Of a stretch of DNA of 64,000 bases, positions 4,828 through 19,585 are shown piece by piece (within the stretch, counting starts at the first letter, position 1; each line of letters starts with the position of its first letter). The DNA is from Planctomycetota bacterium. Lineage in GTDB: Bacteria > Planctomycetota > Phycisphaerae > Phycisphaerales > UBA1924. The notes beneath the pieces were generated by a model, which searched no databases, was not told where the DNA came from, and saw only the letters and a program-made list of their open reading frames with translations. The DNA lies in contig JBCBSM010000001.1 of the NCBI GenBank assembly GCA_039819165.1, positions 248,001 through 312,000 of the forward strand, given 5' to 3'. A program made the translations under genes and the position numbers.

Positions 4828-5178
4828 TCAGGCTGCGATCGTCATGCGGTCGAGCGCGACGCCGATGCGCCAACCGCCGTCCATCTCGGCGCACCGCACG
4901 ACGCGGCCTCGGACGAAGCCGGTCTGCCGGCCCTCGTCGTAGAGCGTGACGCGATCGTCCGCCTCCAGCGGCCGGGCCGAGCGCAGACCCAGGCCCTCGG
5001 TGCTGGCGTCGAGCAGCTCGACGGGCAGCAGGTTGCGGCCGCCCTCGACCGCGAACACCACCGCCAGTCTGCGGCCGCTGCACTCGAGGCGTTGGCAGCG
5101 GCGGCGATCGAACTTGAACGGTCCCGGTGCGGGATTGCGGCCCACCGGCCGCGCGGGCATGCGTCGGACTGCACCCAT
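4828..5178 (-). CDS. PilZ-domain protein
   Basis: A small protein (116 residues with this start) formed by a PilZ domain. The two c-di-GMP-binding signatures are visible: an R-x-x-x-R-type pair in F-D-R-R-R-C-Q-R-L and, about 35 residues later, D-A-S-T-E-G-L-G-L (D-x-S-x-x-G). The rest alternates beta strands (D-R-V-T-L-Y-D-E, G-R-V-V-R-C). It should bind c-di-GMP and pass the signal to an unknown partner. The start is uncertain: ATG 5176-5178 is preceded by AGGAG that almost touches it, and in-frame alternatives lie at 5160 and 5223. It converges on the HIT gene with 7 bases between stops. Confidence 0.72.
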   Translation of the reverse strand: MGAVRRMPARPVGRNPAPGPFKFDRRRCQRLECSGRRLAVVFAVEGGRNLLPVELLDASTEGLGLRSARPLEADDRVTLYDEGRQTGFVRGRVVRCAEMDGGWRIGVALDRMTIAA

Positions 5179-5462
5179 CTCCTGGCCCCACGTGGTGGCT
5201 CGGCAAGAGAGGCGGCGGGCCATCCACCCATGGCCCGCGGCCGGCTCCCCTGAACTCCTCCCCAACGCGCAACGGATCGGCCCGTCTCGCGGACCGCTCC
5301 ATCCCAATCTGGGCGAAATGGGGTAGAACGGTGGATCCTGCGGTTCGTGCGCTCGGGTTTGCCGCAGGGAGGGGGCCAAACCGGCCGACCCGCTGGCGTC
5401 GCTCCCCGGTATGGTGTAGCGATTGCGCAGGTCGTGCCGTAGGCCGAGCGGGAGCGAAGACC

Positions 5463-6317
5463 ATGCCGAGAGAGAGAGCCGTTATCGCCACCATCGCCGC
5501 CGTGCTGGGGATCGCCCCGGTTGCGGTGGCCCAGGCCGTCCTCTTCGAGAACGGCCCGTTGTCGGGCATGCCCGGCGGCCACGAGACCGGGGCCGACCTG
5601 GTCTGGTCGGTGCCCGAGGGGGCCTCCGTGGGCGTCAGCGGCCGGCGGGAGGTGGGCTATAGCCTGGCCGAGCGGATCGAGATCGACGCCGCCGGCTCCA
5701 TCCGCGGCGTCACGGTGTTCGCCTACCAGCAGGGCGCCATCGCCGGCCCGACCATCGACTTCCTGGGCGTCGAGTTGTGGGATGGCCCCCCCGGTGCTCC
5801 CGGCAGCGTGCGCATCGCCGGCGACGCCGAGTCCAACGCGCTCGCCGACGCCGAGTTCGCGGGCGCCTACGCGGCGGTCTTCGGCGTGACGCACACGACC
5901 GATCGCCCGGTGTTCGCGCTCACCGCGAGCGATCTGGACTGGGACATCGACGCTGGCACCTACTGGGTCGCGTGGGAACTCGACGGCACGCTCGACGGCG
6001 GGCCGTACTCGCCCTACCTCGGATCGGCTAGCGAGCCCGTGCCCGGCGGGGCGCTCCAGCGGGTGCTGGGCGTGTGGGTGCCGGCCCGCAATGCGAGCTC
6101 CGACGGCGTGCAGGTCTCGCTGCCGATCGTGGTCTCGGGCGATTCGGCCTGCACGGGCGACTGCGACGGCGATGGGTCGCTCGCGATCTTCGACTTCCTG
6201 TGCTTCCTGAACGCCTACGAGGCCGGCGACGCGTCGGCGGATTGCACCGGCGACGGCTCGCTGACGGTCGAGGATTTCGTCTGCTTCGGTGACGCGTTCG
6301 CCGCGGGCTGCCCGTAG
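5463..6317 (+). CDS. Secreted protein with C-terminal GC-type dockerin domain
   Basis: 284 residues. An N-terminal signal peptide (R-E-R then A-V-I-A-T-I-A-A-V-L-G-I-A-P-V-A-V-A-Q-A) is followed by about 190 residues of beta-rich sequence that I do not recognise; then a C-terminal pair of dockerin-like repeats: C-D-G-D-G-S-L-A-I-F-D-F-L-C-F and C-T-G-D-G-S-L-T-V-E-D-F-V-C-F, ending A-A-G-C-P. The repeats resemble EF-hand calcium loops and are used in Phycisphaerae as an anchoring or sorting tag. This copy has extra cysteines inside each repeat, unlike the other four copies in the window. ATG 5463 gives a clean signal peptide; the open frame upstream is not convincing. Converges with the next gene. 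Confidence 0.85.
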   Translation: MPRERAVIATIAAVLGIAPVAVAQAVLFENGPLSGMPGGHETGADLVWSVPEGASVGVSGRREVGYSLAERIEIDAAGSIRGVTVFAYQQGAIAGPTIDFLGVELWDGPPGAPGSVRIAGDAESNALADAEFAGAYAAVFGVTHTTDRPVFALTASDLDWDIDAGTYWVAWELDGTLDGGPYSPYLGSASEPVPGGALQRVLGVWVPARNASSDGVQVSLPIVVSGDSACTGDCDGDGSLAIFDFLCFLNAYEAGDASADCTGDGSLTVEDFVCFGDAFAAGCP

Positions 6318-6327
6318 ATGCGGTGGC

Positions 6328-6984
6328 CTAGGACCCGCCGCCCGGCGCAATCAGGCGGTCGATGTTGAACGCCGTCGCCGATGGCCCATCGATTCCCGTG
6401 ACGACCTGCCAGAAGGGCTCGTCGAATGCGTCGGGCAGCCAGATGCGGAACTGGCCGTCCTCGTCGTCGGCGTACTGCTTGAGGGGCAGCCCGCCCACGA
6501 ACACCGCCCGCTGCAGCAGCAACAGATCGTCGCTGACATACTCGGATTCGGCGGCGACGCCGATGATCGCGTCCACGAGCTCGCTGAACAGGGTGCGGTC
6601 CTGCCTGAGCAGCACGTCGGCGTCGTCCCAGAGCAGATAGCGATACCGGCTCGCCGGGCCGCAGTGCGCGGGGTCCCGGCCGCGGAGCAGCGAAACGACC
6701 CCGCGCGGGCCGTTGACGCGTCGGGCCAGGGTGGGGCCTGGCACCCCCCGCTCGAGCTGCTCGCAGAAGCTCTCGAGGTTGGTAATGTGGCGGCCCCGGA
6801 AGCAGAATACCTCGGTGTGCCGCTGGGCCTGCAGGTACTGGCCGAGCGAGGTCGCGAAGTCGATCTGGTAGCGGGGGTGGGCCGACCAGGCCACGAGGTG
6901 AGACTCGTCGGTGAGCGCGGCAACGTCGGCCTGCCACTGCCCGCTCAGCAGCGGGTTATTGGACTGGCTGGTCAGCACGCCCAT
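6328..6984 (-). CDS. Conserved-looking protein of unknown function
   Basis: A 218-residue soluble protein that I cannot assign. Codon use and composition fit a real gene, and it fills the space between two convincing genes. Visible are a Trp/His-rich N-terminus, a V-F-C-F-R-G-R-H-I-T-N-L-E-S-F segment, a hydrophobic strand ending in acid residues (Y-L-L-W-D-D-A-D-V-L-L, reminiscent of a Walker B strand) and a C-terminal W-L-P-D-A-F-D-E-P-F-W. No P-loop is present, so ATPase activity is unlikely. The R-H-I-T-N-L-E-S-F stretch loosely recalls barstar-like folds, too weakly to call. ATG 6982-6984 was chosen as the last start before the frame becomes non-coding. A 143-base gap separates it from the mutase gene upstream on the same strand. 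Confidence 0.65.
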   Translation of the reverse strand: MGVLTSQSNNPLLSGQWQADVAALTDESHLVAWSAHPRYQIDFATSLGQYLQAQRHTEVFCFRGRHITNLESFCEQLERGVPGPTLARRVNGPRGVVSLLRGRDPAHCGPASRYRYLLWDDADVLLRQDRTLFSELVDAIIGVAAESEYVSDDLLLLQRAVFVGGLPLKQYADDEDGQFRIWLPDAFDEPFWQVVTGIDGPSATAFNIDRLIAPGGGS

Positions 6985-7127: not shown

Positions 7128-8780
7128 TTACCGGGCTTCGGGGGCCATATGGTCCGATGTGCCAGGGATGACCCGCGGGTCCGGCGGCTTCCGCGAGGCT
7201 TCTGATGAGATCTCGATCTCGACATCTGCCGGGGAATTCTGGGTCGTTCTTGCCGAGAGCCTCTTCTCGCCGGAGCCGGCCACCTCTGGCCGCGCGTGGT
7301 CGGCCGCCTGCCGGCCGTCGTCGGTGACGCGGTAGACCAGGCCGATGGTCTTCTCGGGCTTGCCCAGCAGCAGGCGATCGACTACCTCGACGCCCTGCAT
7401 CAGCGTGTGGTCGGTGTTGGCGACCTCGTACTTCCACATGCCGAAGCGGCCGCGGCTGTAGATGCCGTGCCGCTCCAGCCAGGGGATGGCGACCGAGAGC
7501 CGCTCGTCGCGGTCGACCGACGGCGTCGGGTAGCTGTACTCGACGGCGTGGTGCCAGGTCGATTCGATGTCGGCCCTCTCCCCGGGCTCGAGCAGGCCGG
7601 CGTTCTCGAGGCCCGCGATGGTCTGCTCGACGATGGTCGCCGGGTCGACGGGCTTCTCCGGGCTTGCGCTGGTCTCGCACAGCAGCGAGTAATGCGTTGC
7701 ATTCTCGCCGGTTTGGTCGGGCGTCATGTACGGCGAGTAGTTGCTCAGGTAGGTGACGCGGTAGAAGGGGCAGTTGCCCTCGGGGAAGTACATCCAGCTC
7801 TTGGTGCTGGGGCAGGGCCGCCGCAGCCCGATGCCCACCATGTGGCCCGCCGAATGCAGCAGGCCCCCCGCGGCGCTCGCAACGTCGTCCGGCACGTCCT
7901 GCACGATCCGGGCGCACAGCACGTCCAGCGGCATGGCCGAGATGAGCATGTCGTATCGCAGCTCCTCGGTTGTGCCGTCGGGGCGGCGCACACGGGCGAT
8001 CTTCTCGGCCGGGTCGATGGACACGACCTCGGTCGACAGCCGGATGTGGTCCGACAGCGCGTCGGCCATCCGCTTGTAGAACTCGCCCGTGCCGCCACGG
8101 AGCGGAAACTTGAAGCGGTTGTTGGGGCCCCAGCCGAAGTCGTCGCGCTGCTCGACGACGTTGCGGACGGCGCGCTCGACGTCGAGCACCGCGACCCGCT
8201 CGCCGATCCAGGTCTTGTTCATCCGCTCGGGCGGGTAGGCCCAGACCTTGAAGTTGTACGGCCGCATGAATAGGCGGGCGATGCCCTCGCCGAACACGGC
8301 GTCGATGAACTCGCCAAAGTTGCGCGCATCGGCGTGGCTCGGGCCCTCGGCGCCCTGGGCCTTGATGAGTCCGACGAGGCAGTCGGCGGCATCCTGGGGC
8401 GGCAGGTAGCGGATGTTGTTCTGGAAGGGGTACGGCACCCAGGTGTCGCGGAGGCGGACCCAGCTCTCGCGATCGTTGAGCGCGAAGTCGTCGCCCATGA
8501 CCTCGTCGAAGACGCGGTCGTAGTAGTCGTAGTGGCTGAACATGACGTGGCCGCCGATGTCCCAGGTGAACCCGGCGTCGTCGACGAAGGAGTGCGCCAG
8601 TCCGCCGGCGTAGGGCTTGGCCTCGAGCACCGCGAAGTTCGCGTGGCCCAGCTCGCGGAGCCGCCACGCCGCTCCCAGGCCCGTGGGCCCCGCCCCGATG
8701 ATCAGCACCCGCGGAGCGTCGGCGCGCGGTCCGAGCGGGTCGGCGGGCGATGGAGCGCGGTTGGCGGTGGATTGCGGCAC
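7128..8780 (-). CDS. Eukaryote-type UDP-galactopyranose mutase-like flavoprotein
   Basis: 550 residues. The N-terminus holds an FAD-binding Rossmann motif (I-I-G-A-G-P-T-G-L-G, about 27-36). Blocks that follow are, by my memory of the Aspergillus enzyme, nearly identical to eukaryotic UDP-galactopyranose mutase: D-I-G-G-H-V-M-F-S-H, P-Y-P-F-Q-N-N-I, L-F-M-R-P-Y-N-F-K-V-W-A, P-L-R-G-G-T-G, W-M-Y-F-P-E-G-N-C-P-F-Y-R, S-N-Y-S-P-Y, S-Y-P-T-P-S, and S-R-G-R-F-G-M-W-K-Y-E-V-A-N-T-D-H. The flexible-loop histidine, substrate arginines and tyrosines of that enzyme have counterparts. The reaction would be UDP-galactopyranose to UDP-galactofuranose with reduced FAD. The last 50 or so residues are an unaligned polar tail. 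Start is GTG with a nearby AGAAGG. Neighbouring glycosyltransferases fit a surface-glycan role. Automated pipelines may call it protoporphyrinogen oxidase. Confidence 0.82.
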   Translation of the reverse strand: MPQSTANRAPSPADPLGPRADAPRVLIIGAGPTGLGAAWRLRELGHANFAVLEAKPYAGGLAHSFVDDAGFTWDIGGHVMFSHYDYYDRVFDEVMGDDFALNDRESWVRLRDTWVPYPFQNNIRYLPPQDAADCLVGLIKAQGAEGPSHADARNFGEFIDAVFGEGIARLFMRPYNFKVWAYPPERMNKTWIGERVAVLDVERAVRNVVEQRDDFGWGPNNRFKFPLRGGTGEFYKRMADALSDHIRLSTEVVSIDPAEKIARVRRPDGTTEELRYDMLISAMPLDVLCARIVQDVPDDVASAAGGLLHSAGHMVGIGLRRPCPSTKSWMYFPEGNCPFYRVTYLSNYSPYMTPDQTGENATHYSLLCETSASPEKPVDPATIVEQTIAGLENAGLLEPGERADIESTWHHAVEYSYPTPSVDRDERLSVAIPWLERHGIYSRGRFGMWKYEVANTDHTLMQGVEVVDRLLLGKPEKTIGLVYRVTDDGRQAADHARPEVAGSGEKRLSARTTQNSPADVEIEISSEASRKPPDPRVIPGTSDHMAPEAR

Positions 8781-8952
8781 GAAACCTGCCTTCTTTCTTA
8801 CCCGCGATGCCGGTCCGGATGGCGCTGCGGCACACGGATCCGTGCGTTCGGGGCGGACGCGCCGCTCCGAGCGGCTCAGGTCCGTGGTTGGGGGTCCGGC
8901 GGGGGCGAATCAAGGCCGAACATCCGCGCGCAGCAGGCCCGAAACTTGGGGC

Positions 8953-9729
8953 ATGAAGGCGATGCATGAGGGTACACCGGCGGCGACGATCGAGGCTCGG
9001 CCCCTGGGGCTAGGCGGCGCATTTCGCGTGGCATGGGAGCTGGCGTCCATCCCGCCGGTGCCCATCGCCGCGATCGGAGACCGGATCGCGCACGCCCTGG
9101 CATCGGCGGCGAGCGGATCGGTCGCGGCGGTGCAGATCGGCACGCGGCGGGACGGGGAGTGGTCGTGCCTGAGCAGCGGCTGGGCGCGATCGGGCGGCTC
9201 GCTACAGGGTGGTGGTCCCGGCCGGCTCACGCAGCTGCCCTGGCTCCGCGGCTTCGAGGCGGTCAACGCCGGCGAGCCCTGCTTCGCCGAACCCGACGCC
9301 GGCGAGCCCGCGCTGTGGCCCGTCGCGGCGGCCATGCGCGGCGAGGAGCGGGAGATCGATCTGGCCGCCGTGGTCGCCTACGCGGACGCCCCGGCCCTGG
9401 TGCTGACCGCGCAGTTCGCCTTGGGCGCACGGGTGGTGGCGGCGTCGAGCCACGTGCCGCTGCTCCGCCAGGCGTTGCCGTGGGCGGCGCGGATCGCGGC
9501 CGAAGCCCTGGATTGGCCACGCGACCCCTGCTGGCTGAGCGCCCGGGAGGCCGAGGTGCTCGACCAACTCGTGCTGGGCCGCAGCGTCAATGACATCGCC
9601 GACCGCATCGAGCGGAGCCCGTACACCGTACACGACCACGTCAAGGCGCTGCACCGCAAGCTGGGCGTGCACTGCCGCGGTGCGCTGGTGGCCCGGGCGA
9701 TCCGCAGCGTGCCGCCGCCGGGCCTTTAG
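8953..9729 (+). CDS. LuxR-family transcriptional regulator
   Basis: 258 residues. The last 65 form a LuxR/GerE helix-turn-helix: L-S-A-R-E-A-E-V-L-D-Q-L-V-L-G-R-S, then D-I-A-D-R-I-x-R-S-P-Y-T-V-H-D-H-V-K-A-L-H-R-K-L-G-V, with the usual T-V-x-x-H-V-K-x-x-x-x-K-L-G recognition helix. The N-terminal 180 residues have no receiver Asp motif; they are hydrophobic-alternating and may be a GAF-like sensor, which is inference. ATG 8953 starts a plausible N-terminus; the frame stays open upstream but overlaps the divergent mutase leader. Target genes are unknown. It converges with the lipoprotein gene downstream. Confidence 0.85.
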   Translation: MKAMHEGTPAATIEARPLGLGGAFRVAWELASIPPVPIAAIGDRIAHALASAASGSVAAVQIGTRRDGEWSCLSSGWARSGGSLQGGGPGRLTQLPWLRGFEAVNAGEPCFAEPDAGEPALWPVAAAMRGEEREIDLAAVVAYADAPALVLTAQFALGARVVAASSHVPLLRQALPWAARIAAEALDWPRDPCWLSAREAEVLDQLVLGRSVNDIADRIERSPYTVHDHVKALHRKLGVHCRGALVARAIRSVPPPGL

Positions 9730-9758: not shown

Positions 9759-10424
9759 CTACGGCGGCGGGGCGAATTCGGTCTGGCTGTCGACGAGGCG
9801 ATCGCGGATCGCTCGGGCCAGCACACGGGCCGCGCGGCCATCGAGGCTCCGCGGCGCGTCGTAGGAGGTGCCCAGGCCCCGCCGGAAGAGCTCTGAATTG
9901 GTGGACGTCGAGCTGTAGCCGATTGCGCTGGTCTCCAGGCGCCGCGTCGGCCGCACACGCCTCGAGACGAGCACCCGCACGCTGACGACCACGGGCCCCT
10001 CGGCCTCGGATGGTGAACGCCGCAGCCCGGGCCGGGCCAGGGCGTCGGCCGCGCCCTCGGGCGGAGCCGAGCGGTCCTCGGCGGGCTCGAAGCGGATCTC
10101 GGCGGTCCGCCGATGGGGGTTGATGGTGTCCTCGGCGGCGGTGCTGGCCGACGCGATCGTCCACGCGGCGAGCAAGCCCGCGCCCTCCCTGGGGGCCGTG
10201 GTGATGACGCCCGCCTGGGCGTCGACGCGGTCGGGCTCGTAGCGATGGTCGCGGAGCACGTCGCGGGCGATGGTGAACGCCTGGCGGTACTCGGCTGCGT
10301 CGATGACGAAGCTGGCGTCGCCGCGATCGGTCCGGCTGGCGCAGCCGCCGGCGAGGCACACGCCCGCAAGCACGGCGGCGAGCAGCCCCGGCATCGACCG
10401 GCGGCGTATGGGGCGAGAGTCCAT
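9759..10424 (-). CDS. Putative lipoprotein
   Basis: 221 residues. After an arginine-rich start comes a hydrophobic segment ending L-A-G-G-C (lipobox, Cys about residue 28), so signal peptidase II processing is expected. The mature part has D-A-A-E-Y-R-Q-A-F-T-I-A-R-D-V-L-R-D-H-R-Y and G-V-I-T-T-A, an alternation typical of small alpha/beta lipoproteins that keep a conserved fold facing the periplasm. I do not recognise a named family. It sits downstream of the decarboxylase gene on the same strand, 22 bases away, and may be co-transcribed. Confidence 0.75.
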   Translation of the reverse strand: MDSRPIRRRSMPGLLAAVLAGVCLAGGCASRTDRGDASFVIDAAEYRQAFTIARDVLRDHRYEPDRVDAQAGVITTAPREGAGLLAAWTIASASTAAEDTINPHRRTAEIRFEPAEDRSAPPEGAADALARPGLRRSPSEAEGPVVVSVRVLVSRRVRPTRRLETSAIGYSSTSTNSELFRRGLGTSYDAPRSLDGRAARVLARAIRDRLVDSQTEFAPPP

Positions 10425-10446: not shown

Positions 10447-11982
10447 CTAGCAGTCCGCCGCGAGCGTGCAGATGGCGTCCCAGGCCTCCTCGACGTGCGT
10501 GCGGCGGGTGTGCGTCGAGCCGATGGACACGCGGATGGCGTAGCGCTCGCCGCCGTCCGTCGGCAGCGTCGTGTGGGTCAGCAGCAGCCGGCCCGTGGCG
10601 TTGCACCGCTCGAGCAGCGACCGCGTCCGGGCATCGGCGTCGGCGGGAGACTCGCCATCGCGGGTGATGAGCCGGATGCACACGAGTGAGAGCGAGCGTG
10701 GCGCGGCGAGCTCGAGATCGGCGCTCGCCTCGATCTGATCCTCAAGCCAGGCCGCCCACTCGACGTGCTGGCGGATGTGGGCCCTGAGGCCGGCCAGCCC
10801 GTAGTGGCGGAGCACGAACCACAGCTTGAGCGCTCGAAATCGGCGGCCGAGGGGGATCTGCCAGTCGCGGTAATCGATGACGCCGCCGGCCTCGGTCGCG
10901 CTGTTGCGCAGATACTCCGGCGTGACGCTGAGCGCATCGGTGAGAGCGCGTCGATCGCGTGTCCAGAACAGGTCGCAGTCGAAGCTGGTCAGCAACCACT
11001 TGTGGGGGTTGAAGCAGTACGAATCGGCGTGCTCGAGGCCGCCGAGGAAGCCGCGGTGCTCGGGGCAGACGGTGGCGGCGCCGGCCCAGGCGGCGTCGAC
11101 GTGCAGCCAGGCGTGGGGCGCATGATCGTTGCGGAGGCGGGCCATGGCCGCGATGGGGTCGAAGGCGCCGCTGCTGGTCGTGCCCGAGGTGGCGCACAGG
11201 TAGAACGGCCGCAGCCCGGCGTCGACGTCGCTCCGGAGCTGGGCCTCGAGGGCGTCCGCATCGAGGGCGAACGCCTCATCGACGTCCATGCTCCGCAGGT
11301 GCTCGATGCCCGCGATGCGGGCGGCCTTGAGCACCGACGAGTGGGCCTGGTTCGAGCAATATGCGACCAGCGTGCGTGGGTCGAGGGCCGGATCGAGAAG
11401 GCGGAGCCGGTCGCGGGCGGCGACGAGGGCGACGAGCGTGGCCTCGCTGGCGGTGCCCTGGATCACGCCGCCGCCGCGGGGCTCACCCGCGTGCGGGCCG
11501 TCTGCGTAGGTCGCCGTCGAGCGGAAGGCCGCGGGCAGCCCGCAGGCGTCGGCCATCCAGTCGAGCACGCGGGTCTCGAGCTCGGTGCAGGCCGGGCCGG
11601 TCTGCCAGAGCATGCCCTGCACGCCCAGCCCGGTGCTCAGCAGGTCGCCCAGCACGGCCGGCCACGACGAGTTGCACGGGAAGTAGCCGAAGAACCGCGG
11701 CGACTGCCAGTGCATGAGCGCGGGCAGCACGAGGTTCTCGACGTCGGCGAGGGCATCGTCCCATTCGCCCTCGCCCATCGCGAAGCCGGCCTCGGGCGGC
11801 GCTTCGGGCAGGGCGGCGGCGAACTCGCCCGGTTCGACGATCGCGGCTACGGGCCGCTCGCCAACGCCCGCGTGGTAGTCGCAGATCAGGTCGACAACGC
11901 GGTGGGCGAGGGCTCGGAACTCGTGCAGGTCGACGTGGCCGGGATCGGTTCGATCGTGCTTGTCGGCGGCGGTGTCCGGCAT
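10447..11982 (-). CDS. Pyridoxal-dependent (group II) amino-acid decarboxylase
   Basis: 511 residues of the aromatic-L-amino-acid/glutamate decarboxylase fold type I family. The PLP lysine lies in F-N-P-H-K-W-L-L-T-S-F-D-C-D; upstream are H-W-Q-S-P-R-F-F-G-Y-F-P, G-V-I-Q-G-T-A-S-E-A-T-L, Y-C-S-N-Q-A-H-S-S-V-x-K-A and T-S-G-T-T-S-S-G-A-F-D-P, and H-V-D-A-A-W-A-G. These are the substrate-loop and PLP-phosphate contacts of tyrosine, tryptophan and DOPA decarboxylases, so an aromatic substrate is likely but not proven. ATG 11980-11982 lies inside the 3' end of the upstream glycosyltransferase gene, suggesting translational coupling. Full length for the family (about 480-510). Confidence 0.92.
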   Translation of the reverse strand: MPDTAADKHDRTDPGHVDLHEFRALAHRVVDLICDYHAGVGERPVAAIVEPGEFAAALPEAPPEAGFAMGEGEWDDALADVENLVLPALMHWQSPRFFGYFPCNSSWPAVLGDLLSTGLGVQGMLWQTGPACTELETRVLDWMADACGLPAAFRSTATYADGPHAGEPRGGGVIQGTASEATLVALVAARDRLRLLDPALDPRTLVAYCSNQAHSSVLKAARIAGIEHLRSMDVDEAFALDADALEAQLRSDVDAGLRPFYLCATSGTTSSGAFDPIAAMARLRNDHAPHAWLHVDAAWAGAATVCPEHRGFLGGLEHADSYCFNPHKWLLTSFDCDLFWTRDRRALTDALSVTPEYLRNSATEAGGVIDYRDWQIPLGRRFRALKLWFVLRHYGLAGLRAHIRQHVEWAAWLEDQIEASADLELAAPRSLSLVCIRLITRDGESPADADARTRSLLERCNATGRLLLTHTTLPTDGGERYAIRVSIGSTHTRRTHVEEAWDAICTLAADC

Positions 11983-14099
11983 GGACCAACGTAGCGGGCG
12001 GTGGGGCCCGCCACGCGGCCCCTGCGGAGTGCCAGCATGGCCCTCCAGCCGTCGCGCCCCGGTGCCTCGGGCGGCGGCGGCGAGCCCGCGAGTCCCGAAC
12101 GCACGCCCGAGGCGACCGCCCGCAGCGCACCGGGCCGCCCGCCCGCATGGCGGAACGCGGCGAGCACGCCCAAGGCGATGCCGGCCCATCGCGTCCAGCC
12201 TCGGCCGTGCCGGCGGGCCATCCAGATCCAGTTGCGGGTGGCCAGGCGGCACCAGCGTTCGCTCTTCCGGGAGGCGGCCGGGCTGTCGTGCCAGACCACC
12301 CAGCTCGGATCGAACCAGACGCCGCGGCCCAGGCCCGAGAGGGTCAGCGCGACGTCGGCGTCGTTGCGGTAGAGGAAGAACTCCTCGCAATAGCCGCCGG
12401 CGTTGCGCCAGTCGGTCGCCCGCACGAGGTTGCCGCAGCCCATGACGGGCCAACGCTCGCTGGCGAACGCGACGTGGCGGGCAAAGGGCCATTCGCTGGC
12501 GCCACCATCGGGATGCCGTGGATGCAGCGCGACGGCCGCGATGTCGGGGCGTTGCTCGAGCAGGCCGCTCGCCAGCGCGAGGCCATCGGGATCGGGCCAC
12601 GAGTCGTCATCGAGGATCAGCAGCAGCGGGCGCGTCGCGGCCTCGGCCCCGCGGTTGAACGCGGCGACGCCGGTGTTCTCCTCGCACCGGATGCACCGCA
12701 CCGACGGGAAGCGGTCGGCGACCATGTCCGGCGTGCCGTCCACGGAAGCGTTGTCCACGACGATGATCTCGGCGGACGCGGCGGGCTCCGCGGCAAGCAG
12801 CCGGGCGAGCGTGTGCTGTAGGGCGTCGCGGCGGTTGAACGCGACGACGACGATGCTCAGATCGGAGCCATCGGACGGATGTCGCAGTGGCGCGGGCGGC
12901 GCGTGCGCGAAGGCGCCGCTCGTGCGCGCGAGGGCGGCCGTCGACCCGAGGCCGCGGGCCAGCATCCGAAGGCCACCGACGATCTTCGAGGATCGGCTGC
13001 CCGCGAGCCGCCACGCGCCATGCTCGTCGGCCGCGACGGAGCCGATGGGGGCGAGCCAATCGGCTGGGCGACCCCGGGGCGACACGACGCGCGGGGGCGG
13101 CTCGGGCAGATCGAGCATGTCGATGCTCGGCGCGTCGGGGCGGCCGGATGGGAGGTCCACAGGCAGCGGACCCATCGTGCGGCCGGCGTCGGCGTCGGCG
13201 AGGCCGCGGAGGTGCATCTCGGCGAGCACGGGCAGCCCGGTCAGCGCCATCGTGCAGGCCCGCAGGGTTTCCCGCAGGGCCCGCGGCGCGGGATGGACGC
13301 CCGCTTCGGGCAGGGCCGCCATCGCGCTGCGAACGGCGAAGTAGCGGGCGGCCGTCCGCATGCGATCCGGGCTCGGGTGCTCGACGATCGATGCGGGGAT
13401 CGCCAGCAGCCGGCGCCGCGACGCCCGGCGGAGGCGGACGCCCCAGGCGACGTCGTCGCCGTTGAGGAACAGGTCGGGCAGCAGCCCGGCGTCGCGGACG
13501 GTGCCGGCGGCGACCAGGATGCTGCACGCCGCGAGGTAGTCGCACGCCTCGGGCGCCTCTCCCGCGGGCGGTCGCTGGACGTACTCGCCCGACGCGGCCT
13601 GGATCCGCCCGCCGCACTCGAAGGGCCGGCCCGTTGCCGGGTCGACGAGGGTGGAGCCGGCGGCGGCGACGTCGGGCAGCGCGAGCGCGTCGGCGAGGTG
13701 TACGAGCGCATCGGGGTGCGGGCGGGCGTCGGAATCGAGCAGCCACACCAGGTCGTCGTCGCCTGCGCCCGATTCCGATAACGCGTGCCGCAGCCCGGCG
13801 TTGAAGCCGCCGCTGCCGCCCGTGTTGCGAGCCTGGCGGAGCAGCCGCACGGTCCAGGGCGGCGGCAGTTCCGGGGCACCAAGCGGTGGATCCGAAGCGT
13901 TGTCGACGAGCAGCAGCGTCGGGGTGGCGGCCCTAAGAAGTCGGATGGCGCGCAAGCAGGACGCGAGGCCTTGCACGTCGGCCGGCCGGTTGAAGCAGGG
14001 GCTAACGACCCAGAGCCGCCGCGGCGGCGCACCCGGGAGCCCCGACGCCGGTTCGCTGGCATGGGAGGAACCCTCGGCATCTGGTGCAAACCGCGGCAT
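11886..14099 (-). CDS. Two-domain family-2 glycosyltransferase
   Basis: 737 residues with two GT2 units in one chain. The first (about 25-260) starts L-W-V-V-S-P-C-F-N-R-P-A-D-V and includes L-L-D-S-D-A-R-P (DxD-like metal site) and C-D-Y-L-A-A-C-S. The second (about 415-640) starts L-S-I-V-V-V-A-F-N-R-R-D-A-L, has V-V-D-N-A-S-V-D-G-T, L-L-I-L-D-D-D-S-W-P and G-G-Y-C-E-E-F-F-L-Y-R-N-D-A-D-V. Both look catalytically intact, so the enzyme may add two sugars or alternate linkages. Acts in the cytoplasm on nucleotide sugars. The 3' end overlaps the decarboxylase start by 97 bases in another frame; that tail (T-S-T-C-T-S-S-E-P) is low-complexity. ATG 14097-14099 chosen because upstream codons lie in the divergent leader. 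Confidence 0.86.
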   Translation of the reverse strand: MPRFAPDAEGSSHASEPASGLPGAPPRRLWVVSPCFNRPADVQGLASCLRAIRLLRAATPTLLLVDNASDPPLGAPELPPPWTVRLLRQARNTGGSGGFNAGLRHALSESGAGDDDLVWLLDSDARPHPDALVHLADALALPDVAAAGSTLVDPATGRPFECGGRIQAASGEYVQRPPAGEAPEACDYLAACSILVAAGTVRDAGLLPDLFLNGDDVAWGVRLRRASRRRLLAIPASIVEHPSPDRMRTAARYFAVRSAMAALPEAGVHPAPRALRETLRACTMALTGLPVLAEMHLRGLADADAGRTMGPLPVDLPSGRPDAPSIDMLDLPEPPPRVVSPRGRPADWLAPIGSVAADEHGAWRLAGSRSSKIVGGLRMLARGLGSTAALARTSGAFAHAPPAPLRHPSDGSDLSIVVVAFNRRDALQHTLARLLAAEPAASAEIIVVDNASVDGTPDMVADRFPSVRCIRCEENTGVAAFNRGAEAATRPLLLILDDDSWPDPDGLALASGLLEQRPDIAAVALHPRHPDGGASEWPFARHVAFASERWPVMGCGNLVRATDWRNAGGYCEEFFLYRNDADVALTLSGLGRGVWFDPSWVVWHDSPAASRKSERWCRLATRNWIWMARRHGRGWTRWAGIALGVLAAFRHAGGRPGALRAVASGVRSGLAGSPPPPEAPGRDGWRAMLALRRGRVAGPTARYVGPCRTPPPTSTIEPIPATSTCTSSEPSPTALST

Positions 14100-16661: not shown

Positions 16662-17648
16662 TCAGCCCTCGGAGGGATGACGCAGGGCATTCGGGCCTCG
16701 CCGCGCAAGCCGTGCGGCGAGGCTCTTTGCTGCGCGGCGGACCGGAGCCGGCAGCAGGCCGAGGGCCGCGTCGGCCCGACGCGCAGCGGCGATGGCCCCC
16801 GACTCGTGGTAGGCGTCCCGGATGGCGCGAAGATACTGCAGCTCGATGGGCACGCCGGTCTCGTCGACCCAGTGGGCGTCGCCGGCCCGCAGCAAGGCGT
16901 TCGCCCGGGCGGCGACGTCCACCGCGTGCCGCTCGTACAGGGCGGAGTGATTGGCGCACAGCCGGCGGTAGAGGCCCTCGTGCCGTGCGACGGCATCGTC
17001 GATCATGGTCTGCTCGGCGTGCCGTCGCCAGTTGAAGAGCGGCTCGCGGACGCGGACGCCGCTCCAGCCCAGGGCCGCGAAGCGGAGCCACAGGTCCCAG
17101 TCCTCGTAGCCGTCGGTCATGGCCTCGTCGAAGCCGCCGGCGGCCTCGAAGCGGTCGCGGCGGACCAGCGCGGTGACGGGGTGCAGGTTGGTGACCATCA
17201 GCAGGATGGGATCCCACTCGGGCACCCGCCAGACGACGTTGTTGCCCCGCTCGGTCAGACGCTCTTGGCAGTAGGCGTGCGCGTGGTTGGCCTTCTCGTC
17301 GGCTCGCGACGCCGCGTCCAGCGCGGCGTGCAGCGTCGCGACGAAGGCCGGCTCGATCCAGTCGTCGGCGTCGAGGAAGACCAGGAACTCGCCCTGGGCG
17401 AGGGCCGCCCCGGCGTTGCGGGCGGCGGGCAGCCCGCGGTTGGCCTGGTGCACAACACGGACGCGGTCGCCGGCCAGGGCGTCGCAGGCGGTGGGGGTCG
17501 AGCCGTCGTCCGAGCCGTCGTCGATCAGGACGACGTCGACCTCCGCGTCGCGCTGGGCCAGGCAGCTCGCGACGGCCTCGCCCACGAATCGGCCGTGGTT
17601 GAAGCACGGCACGACGCAGGTGGCGGTGGGCGGGCGTGGATCGGCCAT
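16662..17648 (-). CDS. Family-2 glycosyltransferase
   Basis: 328 residues. Standard GT-A start: T-C-V-V-P-C-F-N-H-G-R-F-V-G-E-A-V, then V-D-V-V-L-I-D-D-G-S-D-D-G-S-T, V-H-Q-A-N-R-G-L-P-A-A-R-N-A-G and the DxD segment L-V-F-L-D-A-D-D-W-I. Further on are R-D-R-F-E-A-A-G-G-F-D-E and Y-E-D-W-D-L-W-L-R, the acceptor-side acidic motif. The C-terminal 120 residues are helical and basic. It is divergent from the ABC exporter gene (50 bases apart) and converges on the cyclophilin gene with 4 bases between stops. Acceptor unknown. Confidence 0.92.
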   Translation of the reverse strand: MADPRPPTATCVVPCFNHGRFVGEAVASCLAQRDAEVDVVLIDDGSDDGSTPTACDALAGDRVRVVHQANRGLPAARNAGAALAQGEFLVFLDADDWIEPAFVATLHAALDAASRADEKANHAHAYCQERLTERGNNVVWRVPEWDPILLMVTNLHPVTALVRRDRFEAAGGFDEAMTDGYEDWDLWLRFAALGWSGVRVREPLFNWRRHAEQTMIDDAVARHEGLYRRLCANHSALYERHAVDVAARANALLRAGDAHWVDETGVPIELQYLRAIRDAYHESGAIAAARRADAALGLLPAPVRRAAKSLAARLARRGPNALRHPSEG

Positions 17649-17698
17649 TGAACGCTCCGGGTGGCGGCCCCGTGGGCGGGCCTCAATACTTCTGTTCT

Positions 17699-19585
17699 AT
17701 GCCCGCGTTCTGGCGGCTCGCACGGCAGATGCTCGCGTTCCGCGGGCGAATCGCACTGGCGCTGCTCTGCGCCTTCTTCGCGGGCGGCAGCCTGGCGGTC
17801 GGGCTTCTGGGCTCGACGCCCATCATCGACGGCATCTTCAAGGAGCAGAAGCCGCTGCCAGAGGTGGCCCGGGCCATCAACGCCGAGGGCGGGCTGGCGC
17901 CCGGCGTCGAGATCCCCGCGTGGCTGATCGAGCGGCTGCCGGCGACGCCCTGGAATGGCATCGCCCTGCTGGTCAGCGTGCTGGCGATCATCGCCGTCGT
18001 GGGCGCGGTGTTCCAGTTCCTGCACATCTACCTCTCGCTCACGGTGGTGCACCAGACGGTGATGCGGGTGCGGCGGCGCGCGTTCCGCTCGCTGCTGTTC
18101 ATGCCGCTGCTCAGCGTGCAGCAGGGCGGCGTGCCCGACGGGTCGGACCGCGAGAAGCCGCTGGGCAGCGCCGATGCCGTGAGCCGCCTCATCGCCGACG
18201 CCGAGCAGCTGTCGTATGGCCTAGAGGCGCTGCTGAGCAAGGCGGTCACGCAGATCACCAAGGGCGTGGGGGCGCTGGTGTTCGCCTTCGTGGTCAACTG
18301 GTGGCTGACGCTGATCGCGCTGCTGATCGGCCCGGCCGTCTTCGGCGTGATCCGCTACTTTGCCCGCCGCATCAAGAAGGCGGCCCGCCGTGCGATGGGT
18401 CACCGCTCCGAGATGCTCTCCATCGCGACCGAGGCCGCCCAGTCGCTGCGGGTGGTCAAAGCCTACACGGGCGAGCGCCGGGCCGCGGCGCGGTTCGGCG
18501 TGGCCAACCGCCGGGCGTACCGGCAGATGCTCAAGGCGCGCACGGCGCGGGCGCTGTCCAAGCCCCTGGTCGAGGTGCTCGGCGTGTTCATGCTGGGCTT
18601 CCTGGTGCTGGTGGCGTTCAAGGCCATCGACGATGGCCACATCGAGCCGGCCGACTTCGTGAAGGTGCTCGGTGGGCTTCTCGTCGCTGGAGCGGCCCTG
18701 AAGCCTCTGACGGGGCTGATCAACGACATCCAGATCTCGGCGGGCGCGGCCGAGCGGCTCGAGGCCCTCATCGATGCCGAGGCCGAGGCGGGCCACGAAT
18801 CCGGGCTTGCACGGCTGCCCAGGCACGCGTCGTCGATCGCCTTCGAGGACGTCGCCGTGCGCTACCCGGGCGCGGCCGAGCCCGCGCTGCGGGGCGTCTC
18901 GCTCGAGATCCGCCACGGCGAGCGGGTGGCGATCGTCGGGCCCAACGGTTCGGGCAAGACCACCCTGCTCGGCCTGCTCTATCGCGTCTACGACCCGACC
19001 GACGGGACCGTCCGCATCGACGGGCACGATCTACGGGGGGTCTCGGTGCGGTCGCTGCGGCGGCAGATCGGGTTGGTCTCGCAAGAGACGGTGCTCTTCG
19101 AGGGCACCATCCGCGAGAACATCGCCTACGGCATGCCGTCGGCGGACGACGAAGAGATCGTCGACGCCCTCGAGAAGGCCCGGGCGATCGAGTTCGTCCG
19201 CGAGATGCCCGGCGGGCTGGACGCCGCGGTGGCCGAGCGGGGCGTGTCGCTCTCGGGGGGGCAGCGGCAGCGTCTGGCGATTGCGCGGGCCATCCTGCGG
19301 GATCCGAGCATCTTGATCCTCGACGAGGCCACCAGCATGGTCGATTCGGCCTCGGAGGCGGAGATCGGCCGGGCGATGGCCGGTTTTGCCCGCGGACGGA
19401 CGACGATTGCGGTGGCGCACCGTCTAAGCACGGTGCGGGATGCCGATCGCATCGTCGTCATGGAGGCCGGCGGCATCGCGGACATCGGGCCGCACGGCGA
19501 GTTGCTCGCCCGATGCGAGCTGTACGCCGAGCTGGTTCGGACGCAGCTGGCCGACGACGGCGACGGAGCGGCCCGGGCCGGTTGA
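17699..19585 (+). CDS. ABC exporter half-transporter (MsbA/lipid-A-type)
   Basis: 628 residues: membrane domain (about 1-345) and ATPase domain (about 360-610). The ATPase has Walker A G-P-N-G-S-G-K-T-T-L, Q-loop G-L-V-S-Q-E-T-V-L-F, signature [10 protein letters not shown], Walker B I-L-I-L-D-E-A-T-S-M-V-D and the H-loop V-A-H-R-L-S-T-V. The order matches exporters of the MsbA/lipid-flippase class, which work as homodimers. Two insertions relative to MsbA are visible: about 45 residues between the first two membrane helices, and a short polar insertion after the first intracellular loop. ATG 17699 avoids a 21-residue extension into the divergent promoter. The neighbouring GT2 gene suggests a glycolipid cargo, which is inference. 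Confidence 0.9.
   Translation: MPAFWRLARQMLAFRGRIALALLCAFFAGGSLAVGLLGSTPIIDGIFKEQKPLPEVARAINAEGGLAPGVEIPAWLIERLPATPWNGIALLVSVLAIIAVVGAVFQFLHIYLSLTVVHQTVMRVRRRAFRSLLFMPLLSVQQGGVPDGSDREKPLGSADAVSRLIADAEQLSYGLEALLSKAVTQITKGVGALVFAFVVNWWLTLIALLIGPAVFGVIRYFARRIKKAARRAMGHRSEMLSIATEAAQSLRVVKAYTGERRAAARFGVANRRAYRQMLKARTARALSKPLVEVLGVFMLGFLVLVAFKAIDDGHIEPADFVKVLGGLLVAGAALKPLTGLINDIQISAGAAERLEALIDAEAEAGHESGLARLPRHASSIAFEDVAVRYPGAAEPALRGVSLEIRHGERVAIVGPNGSGKTTLLGLLYRVYDPTDGTVRIDGHDLRGVSVRSLRRQIGLVSQETVLFEGTIRENIAYGMPSADDEEIVDALEKARAIEFVREMPGGLDAAVAERGVSLSGGQRQRLAIARAILRDPSILILDEATSMVDSASEAEIGRAMAGFARGRTTIAVAHRLSTVRDADRIVVMEAGGIADIGPHGELLARCELYAELVRTQLADDGDGAARAG

Follow-up and report, generated by a model that had tools for sequence, protein, structure and literature searches.

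Closest described enzymes and identity of the gene

UDP-galactopyranose mutases (UGMs) are split into a prokaryotic and a eukaryotic group, which share 14–18% sequence identity, and the eukaryotic group has been treated as a feature of eukaryotic pathogens (PMC3624792). The catalytic and substrate-binding residues of the T. cruzi enzyme are known from mutagenesis and QM/MM calculations (PMC4192007). According to a review, a histidine loop with two glycines (G-G-H) is unique to eukaryotic UGMs, Gln107 of the A. fumigatus enzyme (AfUGM) binds uracil and has no counterpart in bacterial UGMs, and the 200s flap is among the special features of the eukaryotic enzymes (PMC3624792). No report of bacterial members of the eukaryotic class was found in the literature searched; prior reports may exist. 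The window, i.e. the whole stretch of 64,000 nucleotides of planctomycete DNA that was analysed, contains a candidate for such a member:

7128–8780, minus strand: putative eukaryote-type UGM of 550 aa, GTG start at 8780, core at about residues 22–480
7128–7352, minus strand: C-terminal tail of the mutase, residues about 476–550, delimited by alignment and pLDDT

The frame running from 8780 to 7128 on the minus strand is open over 550 codons, and its GC contents of 0.67/0.47/0.92 at the three codon positions indicate a strong coding composition. In five other genomes drawn from the same genus the gene is intact and conserved (5/5, 80–82% identity). The identity of the product was assessed by a sequence search of the PDB, residue mapping, an AF2 model, and a Foldseek comparison to the T. 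cruzi structure 4dsg. The best solved match in the PDB sequence search was T. cruzi UGM, which aligned to residues 22–485 with E 5.6e-122 and a score of 411 bits. Residues 24–492 were matched by A. fumigatus UGM (E 3.1e-109), and only eukaryotic UGMs were among the high-scoring matches. These near full-length matches lie far outside what chance would produce and bear out the first-pass annotation, which had described long blocks resembling fungal and protist UGMs; protoporphyrinogen oxidases, named there as the best matches that would speak against it, did not take this place. Over 449 aligned positions the mutase is 46.5% identical to T. cruzi UGM, and in the same alignment it shares 42% identity with A. 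fumigatus UGM, while the two eukaryotic enzymes share 48%, i.e., the bacterial protein is about as near to either of them as they are to each other.

The bacterial Glf enzymes (PF03275; E. coli, K. pneumoniae, M. tuberculosis) presumably catalyze the same reaction by the same flavin chemistry, but the planctomycete mutase had no Pfam match to PF03275 (GLF) at E 0.01, and the first Glf-type match in the PDB, M. tuberculosis 1v0j, was obtained with E 0.026 and 16 bits; an assignment as Glf was rejected. Pfam returned general flavoprotein domains only, namely Amino_oxidase as the top domain and NAD_binding_8. In NCBIfam nothing scored above a curated cut-off, the nearest models being those of PRK07208 “hypothetical protein”, which belong to the same superfamily (176 bits, as compared to cut-offs of 380–587 bits). 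The earlier claim of a eukaryote-type UGM far removed from bacterial Glf is confirmed by sequence comparison, and we regard 7128–8780 as encoding a UGM of the eukaryote type and not a Glf.

Active site, predicted fold and C-terminal tail

The Rossmann FAD motif GxGxxG is present as GAGPTG at residues 29–34. The double-glycine histidine loop reads GGHV (residues 76–79), and the uracil-binding glutamine corresponding to AfUGM Gln107 is Q120, located within a WVPYPFQNN block. Residues H62, R176, N201, Y317, R327, Y395, R423, Y429 and N433 of T. cruzi UGM map to H78, R195, N220, Y331, R341, Y417, R445, Y451 and N455 of the mutase, respectively. All three features tied to eukaryotic UGMs, namely the double-glycine histidine loop, the uracil-binding glutamine and the 200s-flap asparagine, are present, and they are shared with A. 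fumigatus UGM (UgmA; 3ute/3ukl and others), which differs in carrying an insert after the SNYSPY block that the planctomycete mutase lacks.

From the work on the T. cruzi and A. fumigatus enzymes (PMC4192007, PMC3624792) we set a signature of 13 positions, comprising GGHV, the glutamine, R176, N201, Y317, R327, Y395, R423, Y429 and N433. In the alignment, all 13 are identical in the mutase and in the T. cruzi and A. fumigatus UGMs, so that the comparison to the Aspergillus enzyme suggested in the first-pass annotation revealed agreement at every position looked at. Of the 61 rows that make up the wider clade, 55 carry the complete 13-letter signature. Among the exceptions, four from Planctomycetota family f68 show V63→I and Y395→F, L094 is altered at V63 only, and L098 has N201→D.

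The AF2 model of the mutase (mean pLDDT 80.8) matched 4dsg in Foldseek with E 1.3e-53 and a TM score of 0.88–0.91, normalised to the target, whereas the next fold other than UGM, of the protoporphyrinogen oxidase type, was found at about 1e-24. The predicted fold of the planctomycete mutase is that of a UGM. Fold, FAD site, the 13 active-site positions and core length are thus shared with T. cruzi UGM (4dsg/4dsh), from which the planctomycete protein differs in being bacterial, in forming a clade of its own (see below), and in possessing a C-terminal tail of ~60–70 residues with a motif specific to Phycisphaerae. In the alignment, this motif, TIGxxYxxTxDGRxAAxHxRxxxAGSGEKRL, makes up the first ~33 residues of the tail and occurs in Phycisphaerae only, while the AF2 pLDDT is below 50 at residues 483–531, i.e., the tail is modelled as disordered. 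Since it is conserved though modelled as disordered, the motif may bind something.

Neighbouring genes

According to the first-pass annotation, the locus lies near two GT2 genes and an ABC exporter. The following genes are found upstream of the mutase gene:

8900–9729, plus strand: LuxR-type HTH protein (Pfam GerE), HTH at the C-terminus, exact start not set
9759–10424, minus strand: putative lipoprotein, 221 aa
10447–11982, minus strand: PLP-dependent decarboxylase (Pfam Pyridoxal_deC), upstream start approximate
11886–12998, minus strand: GT2 glycosyltransferase a (GT2a), start approximate
16662–17648, minus strand: GT2 glycosyltransferase b (GT2b)
17636–19585, plus strand: MsbA-like ABC exporter

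The glycosyltransferase and exporter genes are indeed nearby, at distances of 3–11 kb from the mutase gene and on mixed strands, but the idea of one transcription unit did not hold. The PLP decarboxylase, the lipoprotein, the oppositely oriented LuxR-type gene, which reads away from the mutase gene, and a cyclophilin gene lie in between. A LuxR/GerE-type HTH match in the same orientation occurs in 41 Phycisphaerae loci, the lipoprotein gene, whose product had no family match in Pfam or NCBIfam, is near the mutase gene in 23, and the decarboxylase gene, the product of which scored below the cut-off of the NCBIfam DABA decarboxylase-like model, in 26. Among the Phycisphaerae loci, GT2a is kept beside the decarboxylase gene only within the genus, and an operon uniting the mutase gene with those for the GT2 proteins and the exporter was rejected; GT2b and the ABC exporter were beyond the reach of most locus stretches compared. 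Searches of solved structures and NCBIfam models revealed no Galf-transferase match for either GT2a or GT2b. Both gave generic GT2 matches only, and their assignment as Galf-transferases was discarded. On the other side of the mutase gene, positions 5127–6317 of the plus strand encode a protein with a GC-type dockerin domain (NCBIfam NF041540) at its C-terminus.

Proposed function

Drawing on homology, active site, predicted fold, distribution and phylogeny, we consider it very probable that the gene codes for a working UGM which makes UDP-galactofuranose, and that it is of non-eukaryotic source. The Phycisphaerae would have retained the gene by vertical descent over a long time, and it would belong to a UGM class scattered over many bacterial phyla. 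The chemistry is inferred from the enzymology of the T. cruzi and A. fumigatus UGMs. UDP-galactopyranose would be provided by GalE (a galE gene scoring above the curated cut-off is present in the source genome), and N5 of the reduced FAD would attack its anomeric carbon; the sugar would open as a flavin iminium and reclose as a five-membered ring, and re-attachment of UDP would yield UDP-galactofuranose, to be used by a glycosyltransferase for building the surface glycan. By analogy to the characterized enzymes, UDP-galactofuranose synthesis would be the natural function of the mutase. Since the GT2 proteins lack a Galf-transferase match and are not encoded in the transcription unit of the mutase, we infer the use of galactofuranose from the enzyme alone; as the end product, surface galactofuranose is plausible.

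Bacterial Glf-type enzymes have relatives that act on other UDP- or dTDP-sugars, and for this reason we leave the exact substrate wider than UDP-galactopyranose. A mutase of the same class whose main substrate is a different nucleotide sugar (UDP-GalNAc or a deoxy-sugar, for instance) and which forms another furanose would be compatible with the identities of only 42–47% to characterized enzymes and with the failure to identify a Galf-transferase near the gene. Moreover, a distant sister group mostly alters R176 and N433, which suggests at least one substrate shift in the wider family. However, all substrate-contacting positions checked in the planctomycete mutase, including R176, N201 and N433, are identical to those of the T. 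cruzi and A. fumigatus enzymes that act on UDP-galactopyranose, rendering another main substrate improbable. A redox flavoenzyme of the amine oxidase/protoporphyrinogen oxidase superfamily that merely resembles UGM would agree with Amino_oxidase being the top Pfam domain and with PRK07208 being the nearest, sub-threshold NCBIfam entry, but it is highly unlikely in view of the complete UGM active site, the full-length match to UGM with 411 bits as compared to 26 bits for protoporphyrinogen oxidase (the competing identity named in the first-pass annotation) in the PDB search, and the TIGR00562 score of 17.8 bits, far below the cut-off of 97.85. The reading as a UDP-galactofuranose-forming UGM is therefore preferred.

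As for the remote rows themselves (L089, L090, L115–L119, L128 and L129), which share 28–34% identity with the query, they keep Y317, R327, Y395, R423, Y429 and N201, and most of them show TGH in the histidine loop, R176→F/S and N433→S/T. They are possibly sugar-nucleotide mutases with another substrate. Distant rows of the tree, which may be members of PRK07208, mostly lack the GGH/R176/N433 part of the signature.

Distribution among bacteria

The mutase gene is present in a single copy in the source genome, in which classical Glf (PF03275) was not found. Each of the six genomes looked at in the genus has it, as do 29 of the 61 in the source organism's family; its absence from about half of the family implies that the product is dispensable. 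In a sample of the class Phycisphaerae it was detected in 23 of 298 genomes, and in a sample of the phylum Planctomycetota in 14 of 294, five of which belong to the source organism's own genus. Classical Glf was found in 17 of 296 genomes of the class, all outside the source organism's family; one genome of the class sample (G139) carries both Glf and the eukaryote-type UGM. Close relatives are present across Phycisphaerae and are distributed patchily over other Planctomycetota, Thermodesulfobacteriota, Myxococcota, Actinomycetota and Sumerlaeota. Copies with 43–55% identity occur in the phyla of Geothermobacter, Archangium and Acidimicrobiales and in one Sumerlaeota genome, well apart from a remote bacterial group at 28–38% identity. 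Here the eukaryote-type UGM is a normal bacterial gene, and the label “eukaryotic” is misleading.

A decayed copy with five in-frame stops (L099, C10:45328–46239) was observed in genome G553 of Planctomycetota family f68, relatives of which possess intact copies. Typical Phycisphaerae mutases were encountered on contigs labelled Leptolyngbya sp. PLA1 (L030, 68% identity) and Fimbriimonadaceae (L060, 63% identity); the labels or bins of both are probably wrong. Viral copies were confined to one IMG/VR contig, which encodes a eukaryote-type UGM of 50% identity at positions 103–1452 (L130).

Phylogeny and origin

A tree of 56 rows and 448 columns was calculated with IQ-TREE (LG+C20+F+G4, longest branches removed); it includes only two eukaryotic rows (T. 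cruzi and A. fumigatus), was sampled by similarity to the query, and is rooted on the remote group. The query and the eukaryotic UGMs fall into one ingroup apart from the distant sister family (support 100/100). Within it, the Phycisphaerae mutases form a clade of their own (100/100), while the two eukaryotic UGMs form a pair (97/90) nested in a mixed bacterial group, where rows from the myxobacterial phylum are their nearest neighbours (95/96). Forcing Phycisphaerae and eukaryotes into one clade lowers the log-likelihood by 58 units and was rejected (AU p 0.004). A split between all bacteria and the eukaryotes costs 29 units (AU p 0.012) and was likewise rejected, a result which, with two eukaryotic rows, is not final. 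Uniting the Planctomycetota copies in one clade costs 188 units (p 0.00016), so that several separate gene lineages exist in the phylum.

The clustering with eukaryotic mutases considered in the first-pass annotation was recovered in the form of the common ingroup; a sister relation of planctomycetes and eukaryotes was not. Because the eukaryotic enzymes are nested elsewhere and the forced joins were rejected, there is no special planctomycete–eukaryote link; the unusual evolutionary link that had been claimed gives way to a family spread across many phyla. Transfer of the gene from a eukaryote to the Phycisphaerae, for which nothing speaks beyond the similarity first noticed, is highly unlikely given the separate Phycisphaerae clade, the cost of joining it to the eukaryotes, and the many bacterial branches in between. 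Judged from the sequences, the UGM family rather looks bacterial and repeatedly transferred, with the eukaryotes drawing from it.

An AAA+/ORC-like protein encoded downstream

Immediately downstream of the mutase gene lies another gene:

6328–6984, minus strand: AAA+/ORC-like protein, 218 aa, without a Walker A motif (from model, synteny and profile scans)

No family or sequence match was found for its product. The structural model (pLDDT 88.8) shows an AAA+/ORC-type domain (Foldseek E 8.8e-4), and its best structural match is human ORC5 (Z 13.3, rmsd 3.3 over 160 residues). The Walker A motif GxxxxGK[ST] was found in none of 30 members of the family. The gene is located just downstream of the mutase gene in about half of the Phycisphaerae loci; 36 loci keep it near the mutase gene. 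Within the source organism's family it is present in 29 of 29 mutase-bearing genomes as compared to 14 of 32 others (Fisher p 4e-7, ignoring the kinship of the genomes), and among the 29 it is on the same contig and strand as the mutase gene within 8.4 kb in 21 and within about 3.1 kb in 20.

This linkage is most simply explained by a position inherited from a common ancestor, and a functional partnership of the two proteins is possible. A more far-reaching reading, in which the Phycisphaerae mutase and its AAA+/ORC-like neighbour form a module, perhaps via the tail, and the class is bacterial with the eukaryotes' copy stemming from near Myxococcota, appears rather unlikely as a whole; if true, the mutase would be regulated or scaffolded in a way for which no described UGM provides a precedent.

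Significance

The mutase is ordinary for its class in bacteria, and the interest of the locus lies in the corrected “eukaryotic” label and in the unexplained AAA+/ORC-like neighbour. The “eukaryotic” UGM group is widespread, though patchy, in environmental bacteria, and it encloses both of the eukaryotic enzymes tested. Where galactofuranose synthesis in eukaryotes came from thereby becomes a testable question, and many bacterial homologues are supplied for structural and enzymatic work. Galactofuranose is predicted in bacteria for which the papers searched contain no report of it.
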